Shown here: positions 18,898 through 31,010 of the stretch, piece after piece
How the letters are laid out: each line of letters begins with the position of its first letter
Position numbering within the stretch: position 1 is the stretch's first letter
NCBI GenBank assembly: GCA_903904685.1
Contig: CAIVDS010000070.1
Coordinates: 1-43,634, forward strand
DNA: 43,634 nucleotides
Reading direction: 5' to 3'
Source: an uncultured Verrucomicrobiota bacterium
Lineage (GTDB): Bacteria; Verrucomicrobiota; Verrucomicrobiia; Opitutales; Opitutaceae
Position numbers and translations under genes: made by a program
Notes under the pieces: model-generated
What the model saw: the letters and a program-made list of their open reading frames with translations, nothing else
Told to the model about the DNA's origin: nothing
The model's database searches: none

Positions 18898-19929
18898 GTG
18901 TCGAACCCTGTCTCCGATAAAACCGATATGTCCGCCGACACTCCCGCCATCGAAGTCCACGATCTCGTCAAAACCTATGCCGGCATCACCGCCGTCAACA
19001 AGGTGAGTTTCACCGTGGCCAAGGGAGAGATCCTCGGCTTCCTCGGCCCCAATGGCGCCGGCAAGAGCACCACCATGCGCATCCTCACCGGCTACCTGCC
19101 CGCCACCTCGGGCCAGGTGAACGTCTGCGGCCTGTCCGTCGCCACCCACGCCGACGAGGTGAAGAAATTCATCGGCTACATGCCGGAGAATAATCCGCTG
19201 CCGGAGGACATGCGCGTCTCGGAATACCTGCACTACCGCGGCCGGTTGAAGGGACTTTCCCGCGGCAAACTCTCCATCCGTCTCGACGAGGTGCTGGAGC
19301 TTTGCGACCTCAAGCGCGTCCGCCACCGGATCATCGGAAAACTCTCCAAAGGCTTTCGCCAGCGCGTAGGCATCGCCGAGGTGATCCTCGCCGAGCCACC
19401 CGTTATTATCATGGACGAGCCGACCATCGGCCTCGATCCGCACCAAATCCTGATCGTGCGCGACCTCATCGCCAGCCTGCGCGGTCGGATGACGGTTATC
19501 ATCTCCTCGCATATTTTACCCGAGATCGAAATGACCTGCGACCGTGTGCTCATCATCAACCAGGGCCGAGTGGTTTCGCAAGGCACGCCAGCCGACCTCC
19601 GCCGCGAGGTGTTCGGGCATTCCCGCTACGAACTGGAAATCGCCGGCGACACCGCCGCCGCCCTGCCCGGTGCGCTCACCAAAATCGAACCCACGATCCA
19701 CATCGCCGAAACCGGCGAGCCGGACTCCGCCGGCTTTCGCAAGCTCTGCCTGACCACCGTGCGGGATGACGATTTGGGAGAAGTCCTGTTGCGCACGCTC
19801 GCCGCCGACGATCGTTTCCGCCTGCGCTCGCTGAACCGCATGCATCCGTCGCTCGAAGATGTTTTCCTCGCCGCAACCAAACGCGGATGGGAAGCCGTCG
19901 ATGAGCCCGCCGCGACCACCGTTCGATGA
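18898..19929 (+). CDS. ABC transporter ATPase, GldA-like
   Basis: The 343-residue ATPase has all the ABC motifs: Walker A GPNGAGKSTTMR near residue 50, a signature LSKGFRQRVGIAEVI near 150, Walker B PVIIMDEPTIGLDP near 170 and a switch histidine in VIISSHILPEIE near 205. The signature has K instead of G at its third position, as usual in the GldA/ABC-2 group. The C-terminal about 100 residues are a regulatory extension ending in HPSLEDVFLAATK. The start codon is GTG at 18898; an ATG at 18928 (MSADTPAIEVHDLVKTY) is an alternative. It powers the permease encoded 10 bp downstream. Confidence 0.93.
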   Translation: MSNPVSDKTDMSADTPAIEVHDLVKTYAGITAVNKVSFTVAKGEILGFLGPNGAGKSTTMRILTGYLPATSGQVNVCGLSVATHADEVKKFIGYMPENNPLPEDMRVSEYLHYRGRLKGLSRGKLSIRLDEVLELCDLKRVRHRIIGKLSKGFRQRVGIAEVILAEPPVIIMDEPTIGLDPHQILIVRDLIASLRGRMTVIISSHILPEIEMTCDRVLIINQGRVVSQGTPADLRREVFGHSRYELEIAGDTAAALPGALTKIEPTIHIAETGEPDSAGFRKLCLTTVRDDDLGEVLLRTLAADDRFRLRSLNRMHPSLEDVFLAATKRGWEAVDEPAATTVR

Positions 19930-19939
19930 CCCGCCGCTC

Positions 19940-20701
19940 ATGAAACATTTTTTCATCATTCTCAGCCACGAGATCCGCATGCTGCTCGTCAGCGCCAGCA
20001 CCTACATCGCGGCCGTCCTCTTCCTTGGCGTAATGGGTTTCATCTTCGCCGGCGTACTGGAAAGCTACAGCAAGGCCGCGCAGGAGACCTCGCCCTCCAC
20101 CGTGTTCTTCCAACTTTTCTGGCTGCCTGTGTTTTTCATGGTGCCGCTGCTCACCATGAAGTGCATCTCGGAGGAACGCCGCATGGGCACCCTCGAAACG
20201 CTCCTCACCGCCCCGGTTACCACCGCCGAGGTCGTCTTGGGAAAATACTTCGCCGCCTACTTTCTCTACTTGCTGTTGTGGGGCTCAACCGGCGGGTTTT
20301 TCTACATTCTTTATCGCTTCGCCGGCGATATGCGCTTCCTCGATTTTGGCCCGCTGATGGGCGGATATTTGTTCATCGCCGTCTCGGGGCTGTTCTTTGT
20401 GGCGCTGGGAGTTTTCGCCAGCTCGCTGTCGCGCAACCAGGCGGTCGCCGGCATCCTTTCGTTCACCCTGCTGTTCGCGCTCATCATCGGGCTCAACTAC
20501 GTCGGCACCCTTGAGATGATGAATCTCGACTCGATGAAGCCGGCCCGCGCCGTGGTAGATTACGCGCGCACCTTCCGCCATCTGGACGACTTCAGCCACG
20601 GCGTGGTGGACACGCGACAGGTCCTGTTTTACCTGAGCGGCACCGCGCTGGCGCTCATCTTCAGCATCCTCGGAGTCGAGGCCAAACGTTTGCACAGCTG
20701 A
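19940..20701 (+). CDS. ABC-2 type permease, GldF-like
   Basis: The 253-residue inner-membrane protein has about six hydrophobic segments. It has the family features of an ABC-2 permease: MKHFFIILSHEIRMLLVSAS at the N-terminus, and the cytoplasmic block TMKCISEERRMGTLETLLTA followed by PVTTAEVVLGKY, which touches the ATPase. The frame is open to 19859 and an upstream ATG exists at 19901, but the ATG at 19940 starts the usual N-terminus and follows the ATPase stop by 10 bp. GldF works with GldA and GldG in gliding or secretion of Bacteroidetes; here the cargo is unknown. Its stop is 3 bp before the GldG-like gene. Confidence 0.92.
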   Translation: MKHFFIILSHEIRMLLVSASTYIAAVLFLGVMGFIFAGVLESYSKAAQETSPSTVFFQLFWLPVFFMVPLLTMKCISEERRMGTLETLLTAPVTTAEVVLGKYFAAYFLYLLLWGSTGGFFYILYRFAGDMRFLDFGPLMGGYLFIAVSGLFFVALGVFASSLSRNQAVAGILSFTLLFALIIGLNYVGTLEMMNLDSMKPARAVVDYARTFRHLDDFSHGVVDTRQVLFYLSGTALALIFSILGVEAKRLHS

Positions 20702-20704
20702 CCC

Positions 20705-22186
20705 ATGAAACCCCTTTCCAGCTTCCGCGCCGTCCGCTGGGTCCGCACCCTCAACCTGCTCGCGCAGGCCGTTCTAATCGTCACGCTCTTCGGCGGGCTC
20801 AACTATCTGGCGGTCCACTACGCATGGCGATTCGACCTTACGCAGCACCACCGCCACTCGCTCTCCCCCGAGACGCTCTCGTATCTCAAAAACCTGACCC
20901 AACCCGTGCGCATCGTCGTCACGCTCACGGCGGACAGCGACAACGATCAAGTCGCCCAGGCCTACCGCGACGTGAGCGGATTGCTGCGCGAATACGGCTA
21001 CGCCACCGAAAACAACGGCAAAGGCCGCATTACCACCGATTATATCGACGTTTTCCAGCGCCGGCGCGACGCCGAGGCCCTCGGCATCACCCAGCCCAAC
21101 ACCATCCTCGTGCTCTGCGGCGACCGCCAGCGTATCCTCGACCTATCCAGTCTCTATCATGTGGAAAACCAGGCGAAAAAATCATTCCTCGGCGAACATG
21201 TTTTCACCGCCGCCATCCTCGATGTCGTTAACCCCGCCAAGAAAAAAATCTATTTCCTCAGCGGCCACGGCGAAATGCAGCTCGACGATGTGAGCCCAGC
21301 GCGCGGGCTTTCCGCTTTGTATGCAGAACTGGGCGCCCGCAATTTCGCGGTCGATACGCTCGACCTCAGCCAGACGCATGCGGTCCCCGCCGACGCCGCC
21401 GTGCTGGTGATCGCCGGCGCCCAAGGCCGCTACCAACCCGAGGAACAGGAGCTTTTGCGCCAGTATCTCTCCACCCGCGCCGGCCGCGTGCTCGCACTCA
21501 TCCCACCTATGTATCCACACGGGTTGGACGACCTGTTCTATGACTGGGGCGTGCTGGCCGACGACGTGTTGATTTACGACAACGGCCCCGACGGGCAGAA
21601 CGGCACCGGCGACCTCATCCTGCGCAACTACGCCAGCCACCCCGTCACCCAGCAGCTCATCGATAACAACGTCCCCGTTCGCTTCGGCCCGACGCGCTCC
21701 GTGCGCCCCGATCCCGGTCGCGCTCCCGATACCAACCTGGTGCTCACCGAACTCATCGCCACCGCCAAAACCGCCTGGGGCGAGCGCAACTACCGCCTGC
21801 GGAGCATTCCAGAATTCAACAAAGGCGTCGATCTGGGTTCGCCGCCCGACCAACGGCTGACGGTCGCTACCACCTCGGAGCGCGTCACTACCAACGGCAA
21901 CCTGCTCTTCAAGGTGCCCGGTGGACGCATGGTCGTCTTTGGCAGCGCCGACTGGATCGCCAACGGCAGCCTCGCCACCATCGGCAACCTCTCTCTTTTC
22001 CTTTCCACCATCAACTGGGCCACCGACCGGGACATCGACCTGAAAGTCCCCGCTCGGCCGGTCGACAAATTCCAGCTCTCGCTCAGCCAGAACCAGCTCA
22101 GCCGCCTGCGCTACAGCCTCCTGTTCTTCGTGCCCGGTGCCGCCGCATTGCTCGGGTTCATCGTCTACTGGACGCGCCGCAGCTAA
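20705..22186 (+). CDS. GldG-like ABC transporter auxiliary protein
   Basis: The 493-residue protein has a transmembrane helix near the N-terminus (LNLLAQAVLIVTLFGGLNYL, about residues 16-36) and another just before the end (YSLLFFVPGAAALLGFIVYW). Between them is a large extracytoplasmic domain. This domain starts with the GldG hallmark RFDLTQHHRHSLSPETLSYL then KNLTQPVRI, which resembles the start of the DUF4350-type ABC accessory domain. The later block IYFLSGHGEMQLDD is also typical. In Gld systems GldG joins GldF at the membrane. It probably has a periplasmic domain that handles the cargo. The gap to the permease is 3 bp and to the next gene 17 bp. Confidence 0.88.
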   Translation: MKPLSSFRAVRWVRTLNLLAQAVLIVTLFGGLNYLAVHYAWRFDLTQHHRHSLSPETLSYLKNLTQPVRIVVTLTADSDNDQVAQAYRDVSGLLREYGYATENNGKGRITTDYIDVFQRRRDAEALGITQPNTILVLCGDRQRILDLSSLYHVENQAKKSFLGEHVFTAAILDVVNPAKKKIYFLSGHGEMQLDDVSPARGLSALYAELGARNFAVDTLDLSQTHAVPADAAVLVIAGAQGRYQPEEQELLRQYLSTRAGRVLALIPPMYPHGLDDLFYDWGVLADDVLIYDNGPDGQNGTGDLILRNYASHPVTQQLIDNNVPVRFGPTRSVRPDPGRAPDTNLVLTELIATAKTAWGERNYRLRSIPEFNKGVDLGSPPDQRLTVATTSERVTTNGNLLFKVPGGRMVVFGSADWIANGSLATIGNLSLFLSTINWATDRDIDLKVPARPVDKFQLSLSQNQLSRLRYSLLFFVPGAAALLGFIVYWTRRS

Positions 22187-22203
22187 CCTTAAACCAATTC
22201 CCC

Positions 22204-24186
22204 ATGCGCACCAAAATCACGCTCATCCTGCTTTTCCTGAATGTCGCGCTGCTCGCCCTGATTTTCTACACCCGCCACGCCATCAGCATCGAGCAACGCA
22301 ATGCCGAGGCGCGTGTCCGTGTTTTGGGCGACGAGGTCGTCGGGCTCACCTCCATCGAGATCAGTTCCCCCGGCGTCAGCGAAGTGCTCCGACTCGGACG
22401 CACGCGCACCACCGATCCGTGGGAAATCACCTCCCCCATCAACTGGCCGGCCAATGATTTTGCCGTCAAACGCATCATCAGCGACCTCGAGTTTCTTAAA
22501 CATGAATCGAGCTTCCGCGTGCAAGACCTGAAGAAGAGCGGCCAGTCCCTCGACGACTACGGTCTCGCGAAGCCAACCCTCATTCTCACCTTCACCCGCG
22601 ATCCGGCCATGCCCGGAGGCACGTCCGTTACCACCCAGCTTAAAGTCGGCGACACCACAAAGGTGGGCGGCCGCCTCTATCTATTGTCGTCCGATGAGAA
22701 AACCATCCACGTGGTCGGTAGCCAGTTGGCCAAAAGCCTCAAGACAGGCCTAGAACAACTCCGCTCCGACGCGCTTTTTACTATCCCGGTCTTCGAGGTC
22801 CGCTCGGTCGGCCTGCAAATCCCCGCGCCCGACGGCAAGAATGTGCGCCTGCGGCTCCGCCGCGACGGCGCTCGCTGGTCGTTTGAAGCGCCCATCGTTA
22901 CCCGCGCCAGCAAGGCCGCCTCAGAAGTCGCCGTCAGCGGCCTAAATGCCCTGCGCGTCGACCGCTTCTTGACGAAAGCCGACACGCCCGTCGAACGCAC
23001 CGGCCTGGCCAGCCCCGCCCTGCGGGTCACGCTTGAAGGCAACAATCGCCGCGAGACGCTCCTCGTCGGCCAGCCCGCCGGCCCTGCCGGTCCCGAGGAC
23101 ACCGGATTTTACGCACAGATCGAAGGTCGCGACCAGGTATTTTCAACCCGGATACCCAACAAGCTGATCGACGGCCTCAAGCGAGCCCAAGAAACCCTGC
23201 GAGAGACGCACATCCTGGATTTCGATCCGACTTTGGTCACCGCCATCACTCTGGCCGATCCTTCCGCCCCGCAGGCGCCAGAGCTCACGCTGCAGCGTCT
23301 GGAAGCACCCGCCGGCGGAGCGGTCGGCTGGCAAATCATCCGTCGTGGCGACACAAAAACCGCGCAAATCCTTCAGGCCGATTCCACCCGCGTCGGCCAC
23401 TTGCTCCAACGTCTCTCCCTGCTTTCCGCCACGCACTTCCTTAGCGATGCACCGTCGAAAGCGGAACTGGAGAATTTTGGCTTCAACCTGCCGCAGCGCA
23501 AAATCGTCCTCACCCTTGCGCGGGTCGGCGGCGGTGTGGCGGCCGCAAGCGCCCAGCTCACGCTGTTCCTCGCCGTGAGCGGATCATCCTCCGGTTCGGT
23601 ACAGGCGCGGATCGACGGACAGACCTTCGTTTACGCTGTGGCCGGCGACACGCTCAACGAACTGCCCGTGGCCGCCCGCCTTTATCGCGAGCATACGCTG
23701 CGCACCCTGTCAGAGGGCGCGCAAATCACCGGTCTCAGCCTCACTGCCACCGATGGCTCGGCATCCGTTTACGTTCACCCGCTCGCCACCGGAGAAACCT
23801 GGGCGACCGCTCTGGCTACCGAACCCGAGGCCCGGCGGAAGGCCATCGAAACCGTGCTGATCCAACTGCGCACCCTGCGCGCCAAGCAGTTTGTGAGCGA
23901 TACGTTCGCCCCCACCACCCTCGTCAACGGCCAGCCTGCGCCGTGGAAATACAAACTCGACGCCACCCTCGCTCTCGGCGGCGGCACCGGCGCGCAGACC
24001 ACAACCACCTCGCTCTTTATCAGCGAACGCACCGGCGGCGGCACCCAGTTCGCCGGTTCCCCCGAGCTCGGTGTCATTTTCGAAATCGATCAGCCGTTGC
24101 TCGATGCGCTCTGGACCCTCACTTACGGCACGCGCGATCCCGGTGAACCTGTGATCGTCAAACCCGCATCCGCCGCCCAACCCTGA
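22204..24186 (+). CDS. DUF4340-domain protein
   Basis: The 660-residue protein has one N-terminal membrane anchor (MRTKITLILLFLNVALLALI then FYTRH) and a long extracytoplasmic part. The section from about residue 80 to 260 has the DUF4340 look: a strand V-x-x-I-x-I followed by W-x-I-x-x-P (TDPWEITSPINWPANDFAVK), then the D-Y-G-L block (LDDYGLAKPTLILTF) and a V-G-x-T strand (LKVGDTTKVGGRLYLL). At least two further repeats of this motif (VEVWQ-like E-N-F-G-F block near 420) suggest tandem DUF4340 modules. DUF4340 proteins regularly follow GldFG-like genes. The function is unknown; a role as periplasmic subunit of the transporter is inferred from position. Confidence 0.82.
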   Translation: MRTKITLILLFLNVALLALIFYTRHAISIEQRNAEARVRVLGDEVVGLTSIEISSPGVSEVLRLGRTRTTDPWEITSPINWPANDFAVKRIISDLEFLKHESSFRVQDLKKSGQSLDDYGLAKPTLILTFTRDPAMPGGTSVTTQLKVGDTTKVGGRLYLLSSDEKTIHVVGSQLAKSLKTGLEQLRSDALFTIPVFEVRSVGLQIPAPDGKNVRLRLRRDGARWSFEAPIVTRASKAASEVAVSGLNALRVDRFLTKADTPVERTGLASPALRVTLEGNNRRETLLVGQPAGPAGPEDTGFYAQIEGRDQVFSTRIPNKLIDGLKRAQETLRETHILDFDPTLVTAITLADPSAPQAPELTLQRLEAPAGGAVGWQIIRRGDTKTAQILQADSTRVGHLLQRLSLLSATHFLSDAPSKAELENFGFNLPQRKIVLTLARVGGGVAAASAQLTLFLAVSGSSSGSVQARIDGQTFVYAVAGDTLNELPVAARLYREHTLRTLSEGAQITGLSLTATDGSASVYVHPLATGETWATALATEPEARRKAIETVLIQLRTLRAKQFVSDTFAPTTLVNGQPAPWKYKLDATLALGGGTGAQTTTTSLFISERTGGGTQFAGSPELGVIFEIDQPLLDALWTLTYGTRDPGEPVIVKPASAAQP

Positions 24187-24209
24187 GCCGTCGCGCAGAC
24201 CGCGTTTTC

Positions 24210-26999
24210 ATGAAGTTTCTCCGCTCCACCTGGCACGTCGGCCGCTGGTGCACCCGCAAGGGAGGCCTGTTCGCGCTGTGGAGTCTGTGGCTGTTTTTGG
24301 TGCTCATCTTGGTTACCCAGATTCATGTTTTCACCTCGCATGAAGTCGCCCTGCCCGGCCCCGTGCGAAGGCTGATTGAACAGAATCTCTCCGTCCAAGG
24401 CATCTCGCTCACCTTTGACCGGGGCATGCTCGATCCTTCGGGGCACATGCTGCTGGAAAACGTCCGTCTGGGCACGCCCGCCACTTCGGATGCCCTCGTC
24501 ACCGCCCGTTCTCTCCACGCCAAACTGAAACCGTGGCTGCTCGTCACCGGTCGGCTGGACATCGAGGAGATCAGCGCCTCCGGTCTTGATTTTCATCTGC
24601 CGGCCATGCTTTCGCCCTCTGGAAGCGACGAGACGCTGGCCAACGACATCGACTTCACCATCCGTCCACACGGGCGATTGATGGAAATCGAGCATTTCAC
24701 TGGGAGACTCGGCGGACTGGCCGTGGAAGCAGACGGAGCCGTGCAATTGCCCGCCACGCCAGCCGTCGCCAACAGCGCCGCATTTGTCGAAAACTTGGTC
24801 GCCTCCTATCTGAAAATCGGGAAACAAGTGCAGATCTCCTCAAACCAACTGGCAGCGCTCGACTTGCCGTTGCTCGACATCCGGCTCACGCCGGTGGGCG
24901 ACCACTTCGCTGCGGCCCAAGTCACGCTGCTCGCCAATGGCCTGGCCTTGCCTCCCGTCAAATGTATCCACGGCGCCAGCACTGGAGCGTTCACCGCGAG
25001 CACCCGATTTATTATCGGAGGGAAATCCACCACGCCCATCAGTATCACCGGCAACATCGAATCAGTACAATTGTCCGATGGCATCAAGGCCCGCGATCTG
25101 TGTTTCGCCCTGATAGCCACCGTGGAAGACGGAATGCCACCCATCACTCCGAGACACCTTGAACTCCAATTCGCATCGTTGCACTGGCGGGACATAACCA
25201 TCGGTCCTTCCACCGCCAAGCTCACGGCTGGCCAGGACACCACGATCATGGCCGGCCTTTCGGTGTTGCTCGCTGGTTCGCCGTGGGAGGTAGCCGCCGC
25301 ACTCGACCCTTCGCAAGGCGCAGGCCGAATCACGCTCGACGGCAGGGTTGATTCCGCCCTGCTTGGGTTGGCCGGTGGTTTTGCCAAACACGACTTGGCG
25401 GCGCTCCTTGAGCCGTCCGAACCGGCGCCCTTGAACGTCACGGCCACTTTTCTTCGCGGATGGAAACTGGCGCGGGTGGAAGGTCGCCTGCACAGCGGGG
25501 CCGTGCGGGTTGGCACGGTCCATCTCGACGAGACCGGCACCGAGTTCACCTACGAAGGCACCAGCGTTCTTTGCGACAACCTCGTGCTCCGGCAAAGCGA
25601 AAGCCTCGCCCACGGTCTTTATGAAATGGACACGGCGACCAAGGACTTCCGTTTCCTGCTCACCGGCGGACTGCGGCCCGCCGGGATTTCAGGCTGGTTT
25701 CATCCTTGGTGGTCGAAATTTTGGAAAGACTTCGACTTCACCAGGTCCGTGCCACAGGCCGATGTCGCTGTCGCCGGCCGCTGGGGTTCGCCGGCCGCCA
25801 CCCGCGTCTTTGTGCAGGCCGACGGCGCCGCCACCGGCCTGCGCGGCGCGACTTTTGATCGGGTGAGCACACGGCTGTTCATCCGCCCGCAATGGGAGGA
25901 TATCATCAATTTCAAGGTGGTGCAGGACGGCCACGAGGCCGGTGGCTCTTTCTCCCGCCTCGTTTCCCCCGGGGAAAATGCCTGGCTCAAGATGGATTTT
26001 TCGGTCGAGTCCCGCCTCCCGCTCGCGACCATCGGGCAGTTGCTCGGCAAGAATGCCGTCGAGCTTTTGAAGCCTTATCAGTTTGCTAACGCTCCCGCCC
26101 TGAAACTGGCCGGCCACGCAGACGGAGCCTCCGCTACAGGCGGTCCGAGTCAGCATATCGACATCAAACTCCAGTCGGACGGGCCTGCCTCCTATCATGG
26201 TTTTCCTCTGGCCGATCTTGCCTTCAACGCGCAATTGAATAACGGCAAACTGGATATCCCTGCGATAACGCTGGAGATGGCCGGTGGATGGGCCTCCGGC
26301 AGTGCGCGGGTTTGGGGTGAAGGCCCGGCTCGTCGCATAGCCTTCGATGCCACGGTTACCGGTGCCAACCTCGGTATGGCCATCAATACCCTCGCGCCGC
26401 CGAAACCCAATTCCCCGCCACCCGACGAGAAAACAAAAATTCGGAACCAACGCTTGGACCAGGGACGGATCAACCTGAGCGTGGCAGTGGAAGGTCTTTA
26501 CAGTGATCCTCATTCCTTCACAGGCACAGGCGAGGCCGACATTACATGCCCCGATCTAGGACAACTAAACCTGCTCGGCCCCCTCTCCGAACTGCTGCGC
26601 GGCACCTTGCTCAACTTTAGCAGTTTCTCCCTGAACACCCTGAACGCACAATTCGACGTGAACGGTCCGCTGTTGAAATTCAGCACCGTGAAAATCGCCG
26701 GCCCTAGTGCGGCGATGGAGGCGAAAGGCGACTATGATCTGCGCAACCACCAACTCGATTTCAACGCCAAGGTCTATCCCTTTGACGAAAGCAAATCCGT
26801 GGTGGGCAGCACGGTGAATCTAGTCCTCAGCCCGTTCTCCCGCGTGCTGGAGGTGAAGCTGCAAGGCACCCTCGAAAAACCATCGTGGATCTTCGCTTAC
26901 GGCCCCACCCGACTCTTGAGAACTCTCACCGGCGGAGATGCGCCCCGCCCAGCGCCCGAAAGCAAACCTCCCGCCAACACGACCTCGCCTACGCCTTGA
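24210..26999 (+). CDS. Large AsmA-like/DUF748-type envelope protein
   Basis: The 929-residue protein has one N-terminal membrane helix (LFALWSLWLFLVLILVTQIH, residues about 21-40) and a long beta-rich periplasmic region. The C-terminal third is AsmA-like: LSVAVEGLYSDPHSFTGTGE, then LLGPLSELLRGTLLNFSSFS and KIAGPSAAMEAKGDYDLRNH with QLDFNAKVYPF. AsmA-like proteins form long grooves that move phospholipids between inner and outer membranes. The N-terminal part (SLTFDRGMLDPSGHMLLENV) also fits the pattern. The gene follows the DUF4340 gene by 23 bp, so it probably belongs to the ABC operon. The role in lipid or lipoprotein transport is inference. Confidence 0.8.
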   Translation: MKFLRSTWHVGRWCTRKGGLFALWSLWLFLVLILVTQIHVFTSHEVALPGPVRRLIEQNLSVQGISLTFDRGMLDPSGHMLLENVRLGTPATSDALVTARSLHAKLKPWLLVTGRLDIEEISASGLDFHLPAMLSPSGSDETLANDIDFTIRPHGRLMEIEHFTGRLGGLAVEADGAVQLPATPAVANSAAFVENLVASYLKIGKQVQISSNQLAALDLPLLDIRLTPVGDHFAAAQVTLLANGLALPPVKCIHGASTGAFTASTRFIIGGKSTTPISITGNIESVQLSDGIKARDLCFALIATVEDGMPPITPRHLELQFASLHWRDITIGPSTAKLTAGQDTTIMAGLSVLLAGSPWEVAAALDPSQGAGRITLDGRVDSALLGLAGGFAKHDLAALLEPSEPAPLNVTATFLRGWKLARVEGRLHSGAVRVGTVHLDETGTEFTYEGTSVLCDNLVLRQSESLAHGLYEMDTATKDFRFLLTGGLRPAGISGWFHPWWSKFWKDFDFTRSVPQADVAVAGRWGSPAATRVFVQADGAATGLRGATFDRVSTRLFIRPQWEDIINFKVVQDGHEAGGSFSRLVSPGENAWLKMDFSVESRLPLATIGQLLGKNAVELLKPYQFANAPALKLAGHADGASATGGPSQHIDIKLQSDGPASYHGFPLADLAFNAQLNNGKLDIPAITLEMAGGWASGSARVWGEGPARRIAFDATVTGANLGMAINTLAPPKPNSPPPDEKTKIRNQRLDQGRINLSVAVEGLYSDPHSFTGTGEADITCPDLGQLNLLGPLSELLRGTLLNFSSFSLNTLNAQFDVNGPLLKFSTVKIAGPSAAMEAKGDYDLRNHQLDFNAKVYPFDESKSVVGSTVNLVLSPFSRVLEVKLQGTLEKPSWIFAYGPTRLLRTLTGGDAPRPAPESKPPANTTSPTP

Positions 27000-27104: not shown

Positions 27105-30100
27105 ATGATTCATCAGGATTTTTTACTCCGCATGTCATGGCCGCAGCGCATCGTCGTTGCCCTCGCCGGGGCGACCCTTGGACTGGCGATGCTGATTCTT
27201 TTCAGATTGCTTGATCCGATCGATTTATCGACGTCGGGGTCCATCGAAACCTCGCCTTGGTTTTACACTGCGGCCCTTGGATTTCTCCTGCTCGGCGCAA
27301 TCATCATCATCGTTGAAACCGGCCGGAAAAGAGCGGCTTGGATCGCCGGCGGAGCTTCGTTGCTAGGCCTCGCCTCAGCAATCTCCGAACCATTCGGGTT
27401 CGGGTGCGGCGTAGATACATGGATCGCGAATTTTTTCCCGGGAGATGTCGCTATCAACCCGGAATCCATGCCGTTCATCGTTGCCCTGCCCCTGATCTTC
27501 GGCGGCATCCTCGTTCTGTGGATGGTAATCGCCCGCCACGAATCTCGGCGCATCCTCTGCTTCGCGCTACTTGGCTCCCTGATGGGAGGTGTCGGTATCA
27601 CCACCCTGCTGGGTTATGCGCTCAAAATGTCCGCTGTCTGCCGCTGGGGATCGCACACCGGCCTGCCACCCAGCGTCACCCTGCTGATGTTGACCACTGG
27701 GTTTACTTTGCTGGCCATCGCTTGGCGCGAGCACCACGCGAAGCATACAGGAGCGCCCGCTTGGCTGCCCGTGCCCGTGGTCGCCACCTGCGGCATGTTC
27801 ACCCTGATTTTCTGGATCGGTCTGCGCGAACGCGAAACCGTTTACTTCGGCACCAACACCCAGATCGCGATCAATAATTTCGCGAGCGCCATAAGTCTGG
27901 ATTTTGAACGGCAGGCCGCCGCGCTCGAACGCATTGGTCGCCGCTGGACCGACCCAGACATGAACGCCGTCTGGGAATCGGACGCGGTGACGTGGATGCA
28001 AGACGCCCCTGGCGCGCGCTCCCTCGCCCGCATCGCCCCTGATGGAGCCACGTCGTGGTATTATCCAATGCCCGGCAACGAGGCGCTCATCGCCTTCAAC
28101 CAGTTTAGCCAGCCGGACCGACGCCAAACCTTCGAAATAGTGCTCCGCACCAAAAGCCCGGTAGTGTCCAATTCGCTCGAATTGCCCGGACGTGGACAAG
28201 GCTTTATCATCTGCGCGCCGATCTATCACGCCGCCACTCTCGTCGGCTTCATCACCGCCGAGTTCACCTATCAACAATTTTTCGCAAAAATCGACCAGCG
28301 CGCCAAGGCCAGCCTGCACCACAATTGCGAAATCTACATCGGTGATAAACACGTCTATGATTCCCTGCCAAACCTCGAAGACGCCGGCAACGACCCACGC
28401 GCACTGGCTTCGATTTTCACGCTCCAAAACCGCCGGTTGCGGATCATCATGGCGCCCACCGGGGAATACCTGCAAACAAACCGCCGTTATCTGCCCGAAC
28501 TTGCCCTCGCAACCGGCCTGGGCATCACCTTCCTGCTGGGCTTGAGCGTCCACCTCGCCCGCAAGGCGCGCGCCAGCCTTTTCGCCGCCGAATCTTCCAA
28601 TCGCCTGCTGAGCACCGAAAACGAGGAACGCCGCCGCGTCGAGATGATGTTGACCATCTCCGACGAACGACTGCGTCTCGCCCTCGATGCCACCGCCATC
28701 AGCACCTTTGAGTGGAATCTTGCCACCAACGAACTCCTGCACAGTGCGAGTCTTTGGACCCTGTTGGGAACCTCTCCTGAACAAACCTCCTCCACCGTCG
28801 TCGAATGGGAACGCATGATCCACCCGGACGATTTGGCGAACTATCGTGCCGCCGTCGCCCTCCAACTCAGCGGAGCCTCGGTATTCATCGACCCCGAATA
28901 CCGCGTGCGAGCCGGCGATGGCGAATGGCGATGGCTCTACGCACGCTCCAAGACCGTAGCCTACGGCGCAGCCGGCGAACCCACGCGCATCGTCGGCACG
29001 CTGCAAGACGTCACCGAGCGTAAGAAAGCCGAGCACGCTCTCCGCCTCAGTCAAGCCTCCTCCCGCAAACTGTCCCTCGTGGCCAGTCGCACCGACAATT
29101 TCGTGCTCATCAGCGCACCCGATGGGTCCATCGAGTGGGTCAACGAATCCTTCCAACGCGTGATGGAATATCCCCTCGATGAAATCATGGGAAAAAAGCC
29201 CTCCGATTTCATGTTCGGCCCGGAAACTGATCCGCAAACGGTGAAACTGCTAAAAACCGCCTTCATCCGGGGCGAAGGCCTTTCCACCGACATCATCAAT
29301 TACTCCAAATCCGGCCGCAAACACCACCTGCAACTCGAACTCCAGCCGGTGTACAATGAAAAGGGCGAGCTGGAAAACTTCATCGCCATCGAAGCCGACA
29401 TCACCGTTCGCATCGAAACCGAGCAAGCCCTCCGCCGCGCCAAGGCCGAGGCTGACGCCACCTCGCGCGCCAAGAGCGAATTTCTCGCCTCCGTCTCCCA
29501 CGAAATCCGCACTCCGATGAATGGCGTCATCGGCATGACCAACCTCCTGCTCGAAACTCCGCTCAACCACGACCAGCGCGACACCGTCAACACCATCCGC
29601 GCCAGCGGCGAAGCCCTCCTGTCCATCATCAATGACATTCTCGATTTTTCAAAAATAGAGTCCGGTAAATTGGAACTCGAACACCAGCCTTTCGACCTCG
29701 TGAACGTCATCGAGGAAACGTTGGACTTGTTCGCCACGCAAGCCGCCACCCGGCAAATCGAAGTTGACTACTTCATTGACGAAAAGGTGCCAAAAAACCT
29801 GATCGGCGACGCCGGCCGCCTGCGCCAAGTGCTTAGCAATCTCGTCAACAACGCCATCAAGTTCACAGCCAAAGGTTCCATCTCCGTGGAGGTTTCTCCC
29901 GCCCGTTCCAAAGAAACAATGCGCCTAGGACACCGCATGATAGCCATCGCGGTGCGCGACACCGGCATCGGCATCCCGGCCGACCGGATCAACCGGCTCT
30001 TCAAGCCTTTCTCCCAAGTTGATTCCTCCACCACGCGCAAATACGGCGGCACCGGCCTTGGACTGGTCATCTGCCAACGCCTTTGCATGCTCATGGGCGG

Positions 30101-31010
30101 CGACATTCGCGTGGAAAGCGACATTCGCAACGGCTCCACGTTCATTGTCACCCTGCAGGTTGAGCCCGCCACGCCGGACAACATCCTCCCGGCTCAGCCC
30201 CTGCCTGCCGCTCTGGGCAAAGGTCCGGTGCTCTGCATCGACGACAACGCGGTTACCCTGCGCCGCCTGACAGCTTTTTTCCACGAGGCGGGGATCGAGA
30301 CGCTCACCGCCACCGCGTCTGATGCCGCCATCGCCCTCCTGCAATGCCCTGCGCCTCCGGTTGCCGCTTTGCTGGATATGGAACTCACCGTCGGGACCAA
30401 TGGTGCGAATATCCATGAAGAACTTCGCCGTCTTAAAATCCCCACCATCGGCCTTTGCCTCATCGGCAGCACCTCGCAACCTCTTCGGGAGAACGCCTCG
30501 CCGTTCACCTCGGTTAACAAACCGCTGAACACCCAATCCTTGATACGGGCCTTCCACGCTCTTTTCCCGGGAACCGCATCGCCGACTTCCACGATCAAAA
30601 TCAACGACCTTGCAAAGCTCTCCGAGGAGTTCCCCATCGACATACTTTTGGTGGAGGACAATCCCGTGAATCAAAAGGTCGCCCTCCGCTTCCTCGAACG
30701 TCTCGGCTACAAGGCGGATACCACAGCCAACGGCGTTGAGGCAATCACCGCCCTGACGGCTCACCCGTACCATCTCGTTTTCATGGATCTGCAAATGCCC
30801 GAGATGGACGGCTTCGAGGCCACCCGCCGGATTCGAAAACTTTTTCACATCGCCCGCCAGCCGCGCATCGTGGCGCTCACGGCCAACGCCCTCCAGAGCG
30901 ACCGCGACCAATGCCTCGCAGCCGGTATGAACGGCTTCCTCACCAAACCCATCAAGCTTGCCGAGCTTGCCGATTCTATCCGCCGCCAGTTCTCAAAGTC
31001 TCAGGTTTAG
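27105..31010 (+). CDS. Membrane hybrid sensor histidine kinase with two receiver domains
   Basis: The 1301-residue protein starts with several membrane helices (about residues 1-245), then an extracytoplasmic CHASE-like sensor region (about 255-460; FEIVLRTKSPVVSNSLELPG and GFIICAPIYHAATLVGFITA). A last helix (ALATGLGITFLLGLSVHLA) and coiled coil follow. Two PAS domains (about 520-645 and 650-775) lead to a HisKA with SHEIRTPMNGVIG, His799. The ATPase domain has NLVNNAIKFT, RDTGIGIPADR and GGTGLGLVICQRL. The first receiver (about 1047-1160, Asp1091 likely) lacks the typical Ser/Thr after strand four. The second is canonical (LLVEDNPVNQKVA, Asp1228 in MDLQMPEMDG). There is no HPt domain and no output response regulator next to it, so its partner lies elsewhere. 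Confidence 0.93.
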   Translation: MIHQDFLLRMSWPQRIVVALAGATLGLAMLILFRLLDPIDLSTSGSIETSPWFYTAALGFLLLGAIIIIVETGRKRAAWIAGGASLLGLASAISEPFGFGCGVDTWIANFFPGDVAINPESMPFIVALPLIFGGILVLWMVIARHESRRILCFALLGSLMGGVGITTLLGYALKMSAVCRWGSHTGLPPSVTLLMLTTGFTLLAIAWREHHAKHTGAPAWLPVPVVATCGMFTLIFWIGLRERETVYFGTNTQIAINNFASAISLDFERQAAALERIGRRWTDPDMNAVWESDAVTWMQDAPGARSLARIAPDGATSWYYPMPGNEALIAFNQFSQPDRRQTFEIVLRTKSPVVSNSLELPGRGQGFIICAPIYHAATLVGFITAEFTYQQFFAKIDQRAKASLHHNCEIYIGDKHVYDSLPNLEDAGNDPRALASIFTLQNRRLRIIMAPTGEYLQTNRRYLPELALATGLGITFLLGLSVHLARKARASLFAAESSNRLLSTENEERRRVEMMLTISDERLRLALDATAISTFEWNLATNELLHSASLWTLLGTSPEQTSSTVVEWERMIHPDDLANYRAAVALQLSGASVFIDPEYRVRAGDGEWRWLYARSKTVAYGAAGEPTRIVGTLQDVTERKKAEHALRLSQASSRKLSLVASRTDNFVLISAPDGSIEWVNESFQRVMEYPLDEIMGKKPSDFMFGPETDPQTVKLLKTAFIRGEGLSTDIINYSKSGRKHHLQLELQPVYNEKGELENFIAIEADITVRIETEQALRRAKAEADATSRAKSEFLASVSHEIRTPMNGVIGMTNLLLETPLNHDQRDTVNTIRASGEALLSIINDILDFSKIESGKLELEHQPFDLVNVIEETLDLFATQAATRQIEVDYFIDEKVPKNLIGDAGRLRQVLSNLVNNAIKFTAKGSISVEVSPARSKETMRLGHRMIAIAVRDTGIGIPADRINRLFKPFSQVDSSTTRKYGGTGLGLVICQRLCMLMGGDIRVESDIRNGSTFIVTLQVEPATPDNILPAQPLPAALGKGPVLCIDDNAVTLRRLTAFFHEAGIETLTATASDAAIALLQCPAPPVAALLDMELTVGTNGANIHEELRRLKIPTIGLCLIGSTSQPLRENASPFTSVNKPLNTQSLIRAFHALFPGTASPTSTIKINDLAKLSEEFPIDILLVEDNPVNQKVALRFLERLGYKADTTANGVEAITALTAHPYHLVFMDLQMPEMDGFEATRRIRKLFHIARQPRIVALTANALQSDRDQCLAAGMNGFLTKPIKLAELADSIRRQFSKSQV

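Follow-up and report, generated by a model that had tools for sequence, protein, structure and literature searches.

An AsmA-like gene at the end of a Gld-like ABC transporter operon: a widespread and apparently ancestral gene order in the Verrucomicrobiota, and a candidate for ATP-driven loading of a periplasmic lipid bridge

How phospholipids leave the inner membrane to enter AsmA-like proteins, and whether this step needs energy, is an open question in the field. According to a 2024 study of Pseudomonas, a dedicated inner-membrane machinery, if needed at all, should be essential and is yet to be identified (PMC10900882). The question can be addressed in one gene set in the phylum Verrucomicrobiota, because an ABC transporter and an AsmA-like gene are widely kept together there. 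The example considered here lies in a stretch of 43,634 nucleotides, hereafter the window, that comprises contig CAIVDS010000070.1 of an uncultured member of the Opitutaceae (assembly GCA_903904685.1). A first-pass annotation had placed an AsmA-like gene directly behind ABC transporter genes, and this position was borne out; the gene is the fifth and last of a same-strand run with short gaps, following genes for an ATPase, a permease, a GldG-like protein and a DUF4340 protein:

18898..19929, + strand: ABC ATPase, GldA-like (ABC_tran, 2.7e-28)
19940..20701, + strand: ABC-2 type permease, GldF-like (ABC2_membrane_2, 7.6e-12; several hydrophobic stretches)
20705..22186, + strand: GldG-like auxiliary protein, ABC_transp_aux (PF09822, 2.3e-16; a hydrophobic stretch at both ends)
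22204..24186, + strand: DUF4340 protein (PF14238, 3e-44, in three stretches; a single hydrophobic anchor at the N terminus)
24210..26999, + strand: AsmA-like protein of 929 aa (ATG at 24210, stop at 26999; class-wide profile and AlphaFold2 model)
24255..24347, + strand: codons 16-46 of the AsmA-like gene, a hydrophobic stretch at the N terminus (hydropathy; helix 2-43 in the model)

The Walker motifs of the ATPase are intact, with Walker A (GPNGAGKS) at residue 50 and Walker B (VIIMDEP) at residue 169, and its signature region reads LSKGF compared to the canonical LSGGQ. The permease reading frame opens at 19859; its likely start is at 19940, 10 bases past the ATPase stop. The best NCBIfam matches of the first three proteins are GldA (280.3 bits, cut-off 402.6), GldF (114.7 bits, cut-off 288.5) and GldG (48.4 bits, cut-off 389.9), respectively, and none of them thus qualifies as the corresponding equivalog. 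The AsmA-like gene begins 23 bases past the DUF4340 stop at 24186. Upstream of the run are nadC-, birA- and coaX-type genes, and downstream, at 27105-31010 on the + strand, is a gene for a hybrid histidine kinase with CHASE, PAS, kinase and receiver domains.

The reading frame at 24210-26999 is not a chance one, because 55 of 56 order-level genomes (the window's own counted) carry a match to its product at E <= 0.001. Outside its own genome these matches share 20-59% identity, and the frames listed are mostly of about 900-1000 aa; where a genome gave two rows, they were fragments of a single gene or a gene split across contigs. A contig scan with P0001 as sole query returned no relative. Identification of the protein as AsmA-like, likewise claimed in the first-pass annotation, was supported by a class-wide profile (A5), composed of the window protein with 29 relatives spread over the class, which matched E. 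coli AsmA at 97.2% (E 3e-11, 375 columns) and YhdP at 89.1% (E 2e-6), compared to no more than 0.4% for 12 E. coli control proteins; TamB, at 2.2%, was not matched. Within A5, YhdP was matched by 21 of the 30 members and AsmA by 19 (E <= 0.01). With a narrower alignment (A3), AsmA, YhdP and TamB were the top three of 15, yet at only 4-7%, and a sequence search of the PDB with A3 gave only two weak and unrelated matches, both to tropomyosin. The window protein alone scored below the Pfam cut-offs for both YhdP (PF13116; 6.3e-8, 31.4 bits, cut-off 46) and AsmA (PF05170; 2.9e-5, 23.5 bits, cut-off 29.8), and had no match to the TamB domain (PF04357) at E up to 1, which together with the profile value rules out TamB identity. 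Since the profile matches contrast with these sub-threshold scores and the TamB value, the 929-aa protein is assigned by sequence comparison to the AsmA-like superfamily, outside the curated YhdP, AsmA and TamB families. Codons 752-892 (window 26463-26885) weakly match TIGR04411, the model of Leptospira GspN (28.8 bits against a cut-off of 50), a hint that GspN and AsmA-like proteins may be related.

An AlphaFold2 model built from 29 sequences (mean pLDDT 83.7, pTM 0.58) has the architecture that had been proposed from the letters alone, an N-terminal helix (residues 2-43) followed by a long beta-rich body, with a tail of low confidence from residue 898; 50 strands of at least three residues hold 493 of the 929 residues. 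Together with hydropathy, the helix makes the hydrophobic stretch at about residues 16-46 a probable inner-membrane anchor. Strand hydrophobicity alternates more than in shuffled strands (z 5.3). Alternation by itself is no proof of a groove, because the globular DUF4340 protein (model pLDDT 87.5) alternates as well (z 3.0). When strand faces were assigned from 28 relatives only, over the central parts of 41 strands (residues 79-887), the two faces of the window protein were found to bear 8 charged residues in 143 and 50 in 144, and 103 hydrophobic residues in 143 and 37 in 144, respectively. One hydrophobic and one charged face is what an open groove would require, and a barrel or a sandwich would show the same. 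The continuous groove envisaged earlier is thus backed indirectly, by the long beta-rich model and its two-faced strands, but the strand faces would fit the two other folds equally well. The best Foldseek matches were LPD-3, ApoB100 and LptD, at low TM-scores and with unrelated DDB1 propellers close behind, while a second fold search placed ApoB100 first (Z 11.3, rmsd 12.2, 323 residues), followed by porins and VDAC near Z 8; TamB is absent from the 50 matches listed, which has no bearing either way. These matches are in keeping with an extended, curved sheet that faces lipid in the predicted structure, short of proof, and a role of the protein as a periplasmic bridge is plausible. For the DUF4340 model, Foldseek returned nothing at E <= 0.001, and the best Z was 7.5.

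The order ATPase-permease-GldG-DUF4340-AsmA was found to recur across the phylum. A contig scan identified 31 named loci, one of which (L031) has no upstream DNA; the complete ordered unit is present in 28 of the other 30, with L037 and L053 cut by contig ends, and the 28 include L059, with a gap of 1.9 kb between the DUF4340 gene and asmA, and L061, with a broken asmA. In 45 of 56 order-level genomes asmA follows a short GldG gene in the same orientation; eight have it on a different contig and two (G014, G017) far away, and one (G041) lacks it. At the class level, with linkage taken as match starts no more than 9 kb apart on the same contig and on any strand, asmA and GldG are linked in 49 of 113 genomes and 21 of 39 families. 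The unlinked genomes have the two on different contigs (28) or far apart on one contig (10), or have no asmA row (15, comprising nine without a match and six with matches outside those listed) or no short-GldG row (11); for G016, the GldG row was taken from the order-level search, the class-level search having missed it. The complete unit was also found in 20 of 40 class-level regions, where L090 lacks the ATPase only, at a contig end, and in 20 of 32 short-GldG loci of other classes, where L166 and L178, among the 12 without the full unit, stop soon past the last detected gene; both sets of regions were hand-chosen, either roughly one to two in each family or by their short-GldG rows, and are not a random sample. 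The five-gene order is common in the phylum and looks ancestral. The first-pass annotation had regarded such an operon as unusual, which holds in comparison with E. coli, in which yhdP, tamB and asmA each lack a neighboring ABC transporter gene (on the far side of tamB, at a distance of about 2 kb and past other genes, is a galactofuranose ABC operon), but not within the Verrucomicrobiota.

The borders of the conserved block are sharp at the ATPase gene and asmA, because the flanking genes drop out beyond the order. Of the 28 full named loci, 21 have birA next to the unit and 20 have the hybrid kinase gene there; outside the order, no nadC, birA, coaX or hybrid kinase gene adjoins any of 40 complete units (20 class-level and 20 of other classes), where at least 1.5 kb of flank was available upstream for 18 class-level and 18 other-class units, and downstream for 16 and 18. 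The models of the flanking genes do reach class level, as at L085 (birA 164 bits, coaX 194 bits). A quickly built tree of 65 AsmA-like sequences, in which the row nearest the window protein is that of Opitutaceae bacterium UBA4094 (49% identity), broadly tracks taxonomic groups and requires 3 changes of linkage versus 13.7 in shuffles; the tree has long branches and omits four class-level loci (L063, L065, L076 and L096), a number of loci from the named, order-level and other-class sets, and every other-class genome whose asmA is unlinked. Tree and linkage pattern fit an operon that would have been ancestral and split a few times.

A second Gld operon, paralogous to the first, has four genes and lacks AsmA; it was listed for 31 of the 56 order-level genomes (e.g., G015:C1:5409906), the list omitting the PF09822 rows G022:C89 (a fragment) and G036:C103 as well as weak short matches. 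Its GldG has about 600-720 aa, and its DUF4340 gene is near 390 aa in several genomes. In the 31 genomes asmA is on another contig (24) or at least 16 kb away (seven), and at four paralogue loci of other classes (L184-L187) no asmA match was found; in the window's own genome PF09822 detected a single GldG. A merely fortuitous neighborhood of ABC genes and asmA is ruled out by these flank and paralogue controls. In a transposon study of Verrucomicrobium spinosum, VSP_RS39600, which may belong to this operon or to the paralogous one, is described as having an essential DUF4340 domain (PMC12283558).

Given the gene order with its deep conservation, the AsmA homology, the anchor helix, the two-faced strands and the intact Walker motifs, the products of the five genes at 18898-26999 are proposed to form a single trans-envelope machine. 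In the inner membrane, a Gld-like ABC exporter with the GldG-like and DUF4340 proteins as two large periplasmic subunits would draw on ATP to extract a lipid, a phospholipid being most likely, from that membrane and deliver it to the AsmA-like protein, the hydrophobic groove of which would carry it toward the outer membrane. Contact among the five proteins, phospholipid as cargo, outward flow and ATP drive are all inferred, direction and cargo by analogy with AsmA-like proteins elsewhere, as described in PMC10665443, PMC10900882 and PMC12800296. That an ATP-driven machine feeds lipid into an AsmA bridge is judged to be evenly poised between right and wrong. The fuller proposal, of a dedicated ATP-driven loader in the Verrucomicrobiota from which phospholipid would enter the AsmA groove directly by way of the periplasmic GldG and DUF4340 subunits, much as LPS is handled by Lpt, and which would be an ancestral and phylum-wide exporter, is advanced tentatively and may well prove incorrect. 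At the level of sequence, one machine is favored by a gene order that outlasts its flanks (0 of 40), by a paralogue that is unpaired with asmA and by linkage that clusters on the AsmA tree.

Tight coupling is opposed by the lineages in which the parts are apart or missing, and by the existence of the paralogous operon as a set of four genes. Both parts are kept, and kept apart, in class-level families including f22, f23, f28, f29 and f39, and in f72, a family of another class. Re-searching with sensitive profiles recovered GldG in 16 of the 19 genomes in doubt, and AsmA in 25 of the 28; the Pfam GldG model misses many f23 genomes, and profile A6 detected GldG in each of the 13 re-searched. G041 has GldG and no AsmA match, and two 0.9-Mb genomes (G070, G079) have a weak AsmA match and no GldG. 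At L061:9028-11792 (Candidatus Synoicihabitans palmerolidicus), asmA is broken over several frames while the ABC genes and the DUF4340 gene are each in a single frame; general decay or assembly error is possible at this locus, because the kinase gene is likewise broken over several frames. At L179, L181 and L182 (G170, G186 and G210 of f65), the gene after DUF4340, in the place expected for asmA, resembles a sensor kinase by eye.

The separations in several families, and the occurrence of a single part in a few reduced genomes, would suit an arrangement in which the genes share an operon and do separate jobs, the AsmA-like protein allowing lipid to diffuse without ATP and the Gld-like ABC complex exporting something else; the operon would then be shared because both parts serve envelope growth. 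Spontaneous entry of lipid into TamB in published simulations (PMC12800296) and the proposal of a flux driven by lipid synthesis (PMC10900882) lend weight to such a division of labor. Against it, the five-gene order outlasts every flanking gene tested and appears ancestral, and AsmA is unpaired with the paralogous Gld operon; it is considered unlikely, while still deserving serious attention. It is more doubtful that the five proteins form a coupled machine with another cargo or direction, such as export of a surface glycolipid or of some other hydrophobic component of the envelope, or the recovery of outer-membrane lipid. Sequence data fix neither cargo nor direction, and the ABC parts most resemble Gld proteins, for the cargo of which we know of no evidence. 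LPS is an unlikely cargo, because all 18 genomes searched (the window's genome included) carry LptF/LptG genes at a separate location. Against another cargo or direction, two studies tie AsmA-like proteins elsewhere to outward phospholipid traffic (PMC10665443, PMC10900882). A role of the AsmA-like protein in the assembly of outer-membrane proteins, as proposed for TamAB, with lipid effects secondary, is very improbable: TamAB is reported to act in both outer-membrane protein insertion and lipid transport (PMC12800296), whereas for the window protein neither the TamB domain (E up to 1) nor the class-wide profile (2.2%) gave a match to TamB and no TamA-like match was found among ten neighboring proteins scanned. 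Returning to the proposed loader, the Gld-like transporter is a testable candidate for a pump that might load AsmA-like proteins and, if the proposal is true, this class of ABC transporter would gain a job.

Parts of this arrangement are found in several known systems. With E. coli AsmA and YhdP the window protein shares an N-terminal anchor helix, a long beta-rich body and a significant profile match; at 929 aa it differs from both AsmA (617 aa) and YhdP (1266 aa), and it falls below both Pfam cut-offs. No TamB-family match was found in the window's genome, compared to its presence in 13 of 33 genomes searched. A second AsmA-like protein of 972 aa is encoded in the window's genome (G000:C94, L112:9973-12891, - strand), just above the Pfam AsmA cut-off at 31.2 bits and without useful BLASTP similarity to the window protein; its gene adjoins, on the same strand, genes for an outer-membrane efflux protein and an AcrB-type pump. 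The Lpt exporter of LPS is similar in principle only, as an ABC transporter that hands lipid to a periplasmic beta bridge; the families of permease and bridge differ, and the permease here matches ABC-2 families and not LptF_LptG. LPS export has its own system, since separate LptF/LptG genes are present, and these genes together with the ABC-2 type of the permease rule out an LPS exporter. The Bacteroidota gliding system shares the ATPase-permease-GldG set, GldA-GldF-GldG being the best NCBIfam matches of all three proteins; the Verrucomicrobiota set differs in that all three are below the equivalog cut-offs and that DUF4340 and AsmA-like genes are added. No title naming a Gld-like, DUF4340-containing ABC-AsmA operon was found in the literature searched, with subscription journals mostly outside its scope. 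The combination of an ABC transporter with an AsmA-like gene in one operon does have precedent, with another class of ABC transporter, because Veillonella parvula is described as possessing an operon, mlaEFD-tolC-tamB, that unites an ABC lipid transporter with an AsmA-like gene (PMC10665443). That operon pairs an MCE-type ABC transporter with TamB, whereas the five proteins here have no Pfam MCE match. From these sequence comparisons, the module is real and old, and is a Gld-like, DUF4340-containing version of a known pairing of ABC transporter and AsmA-like protein.
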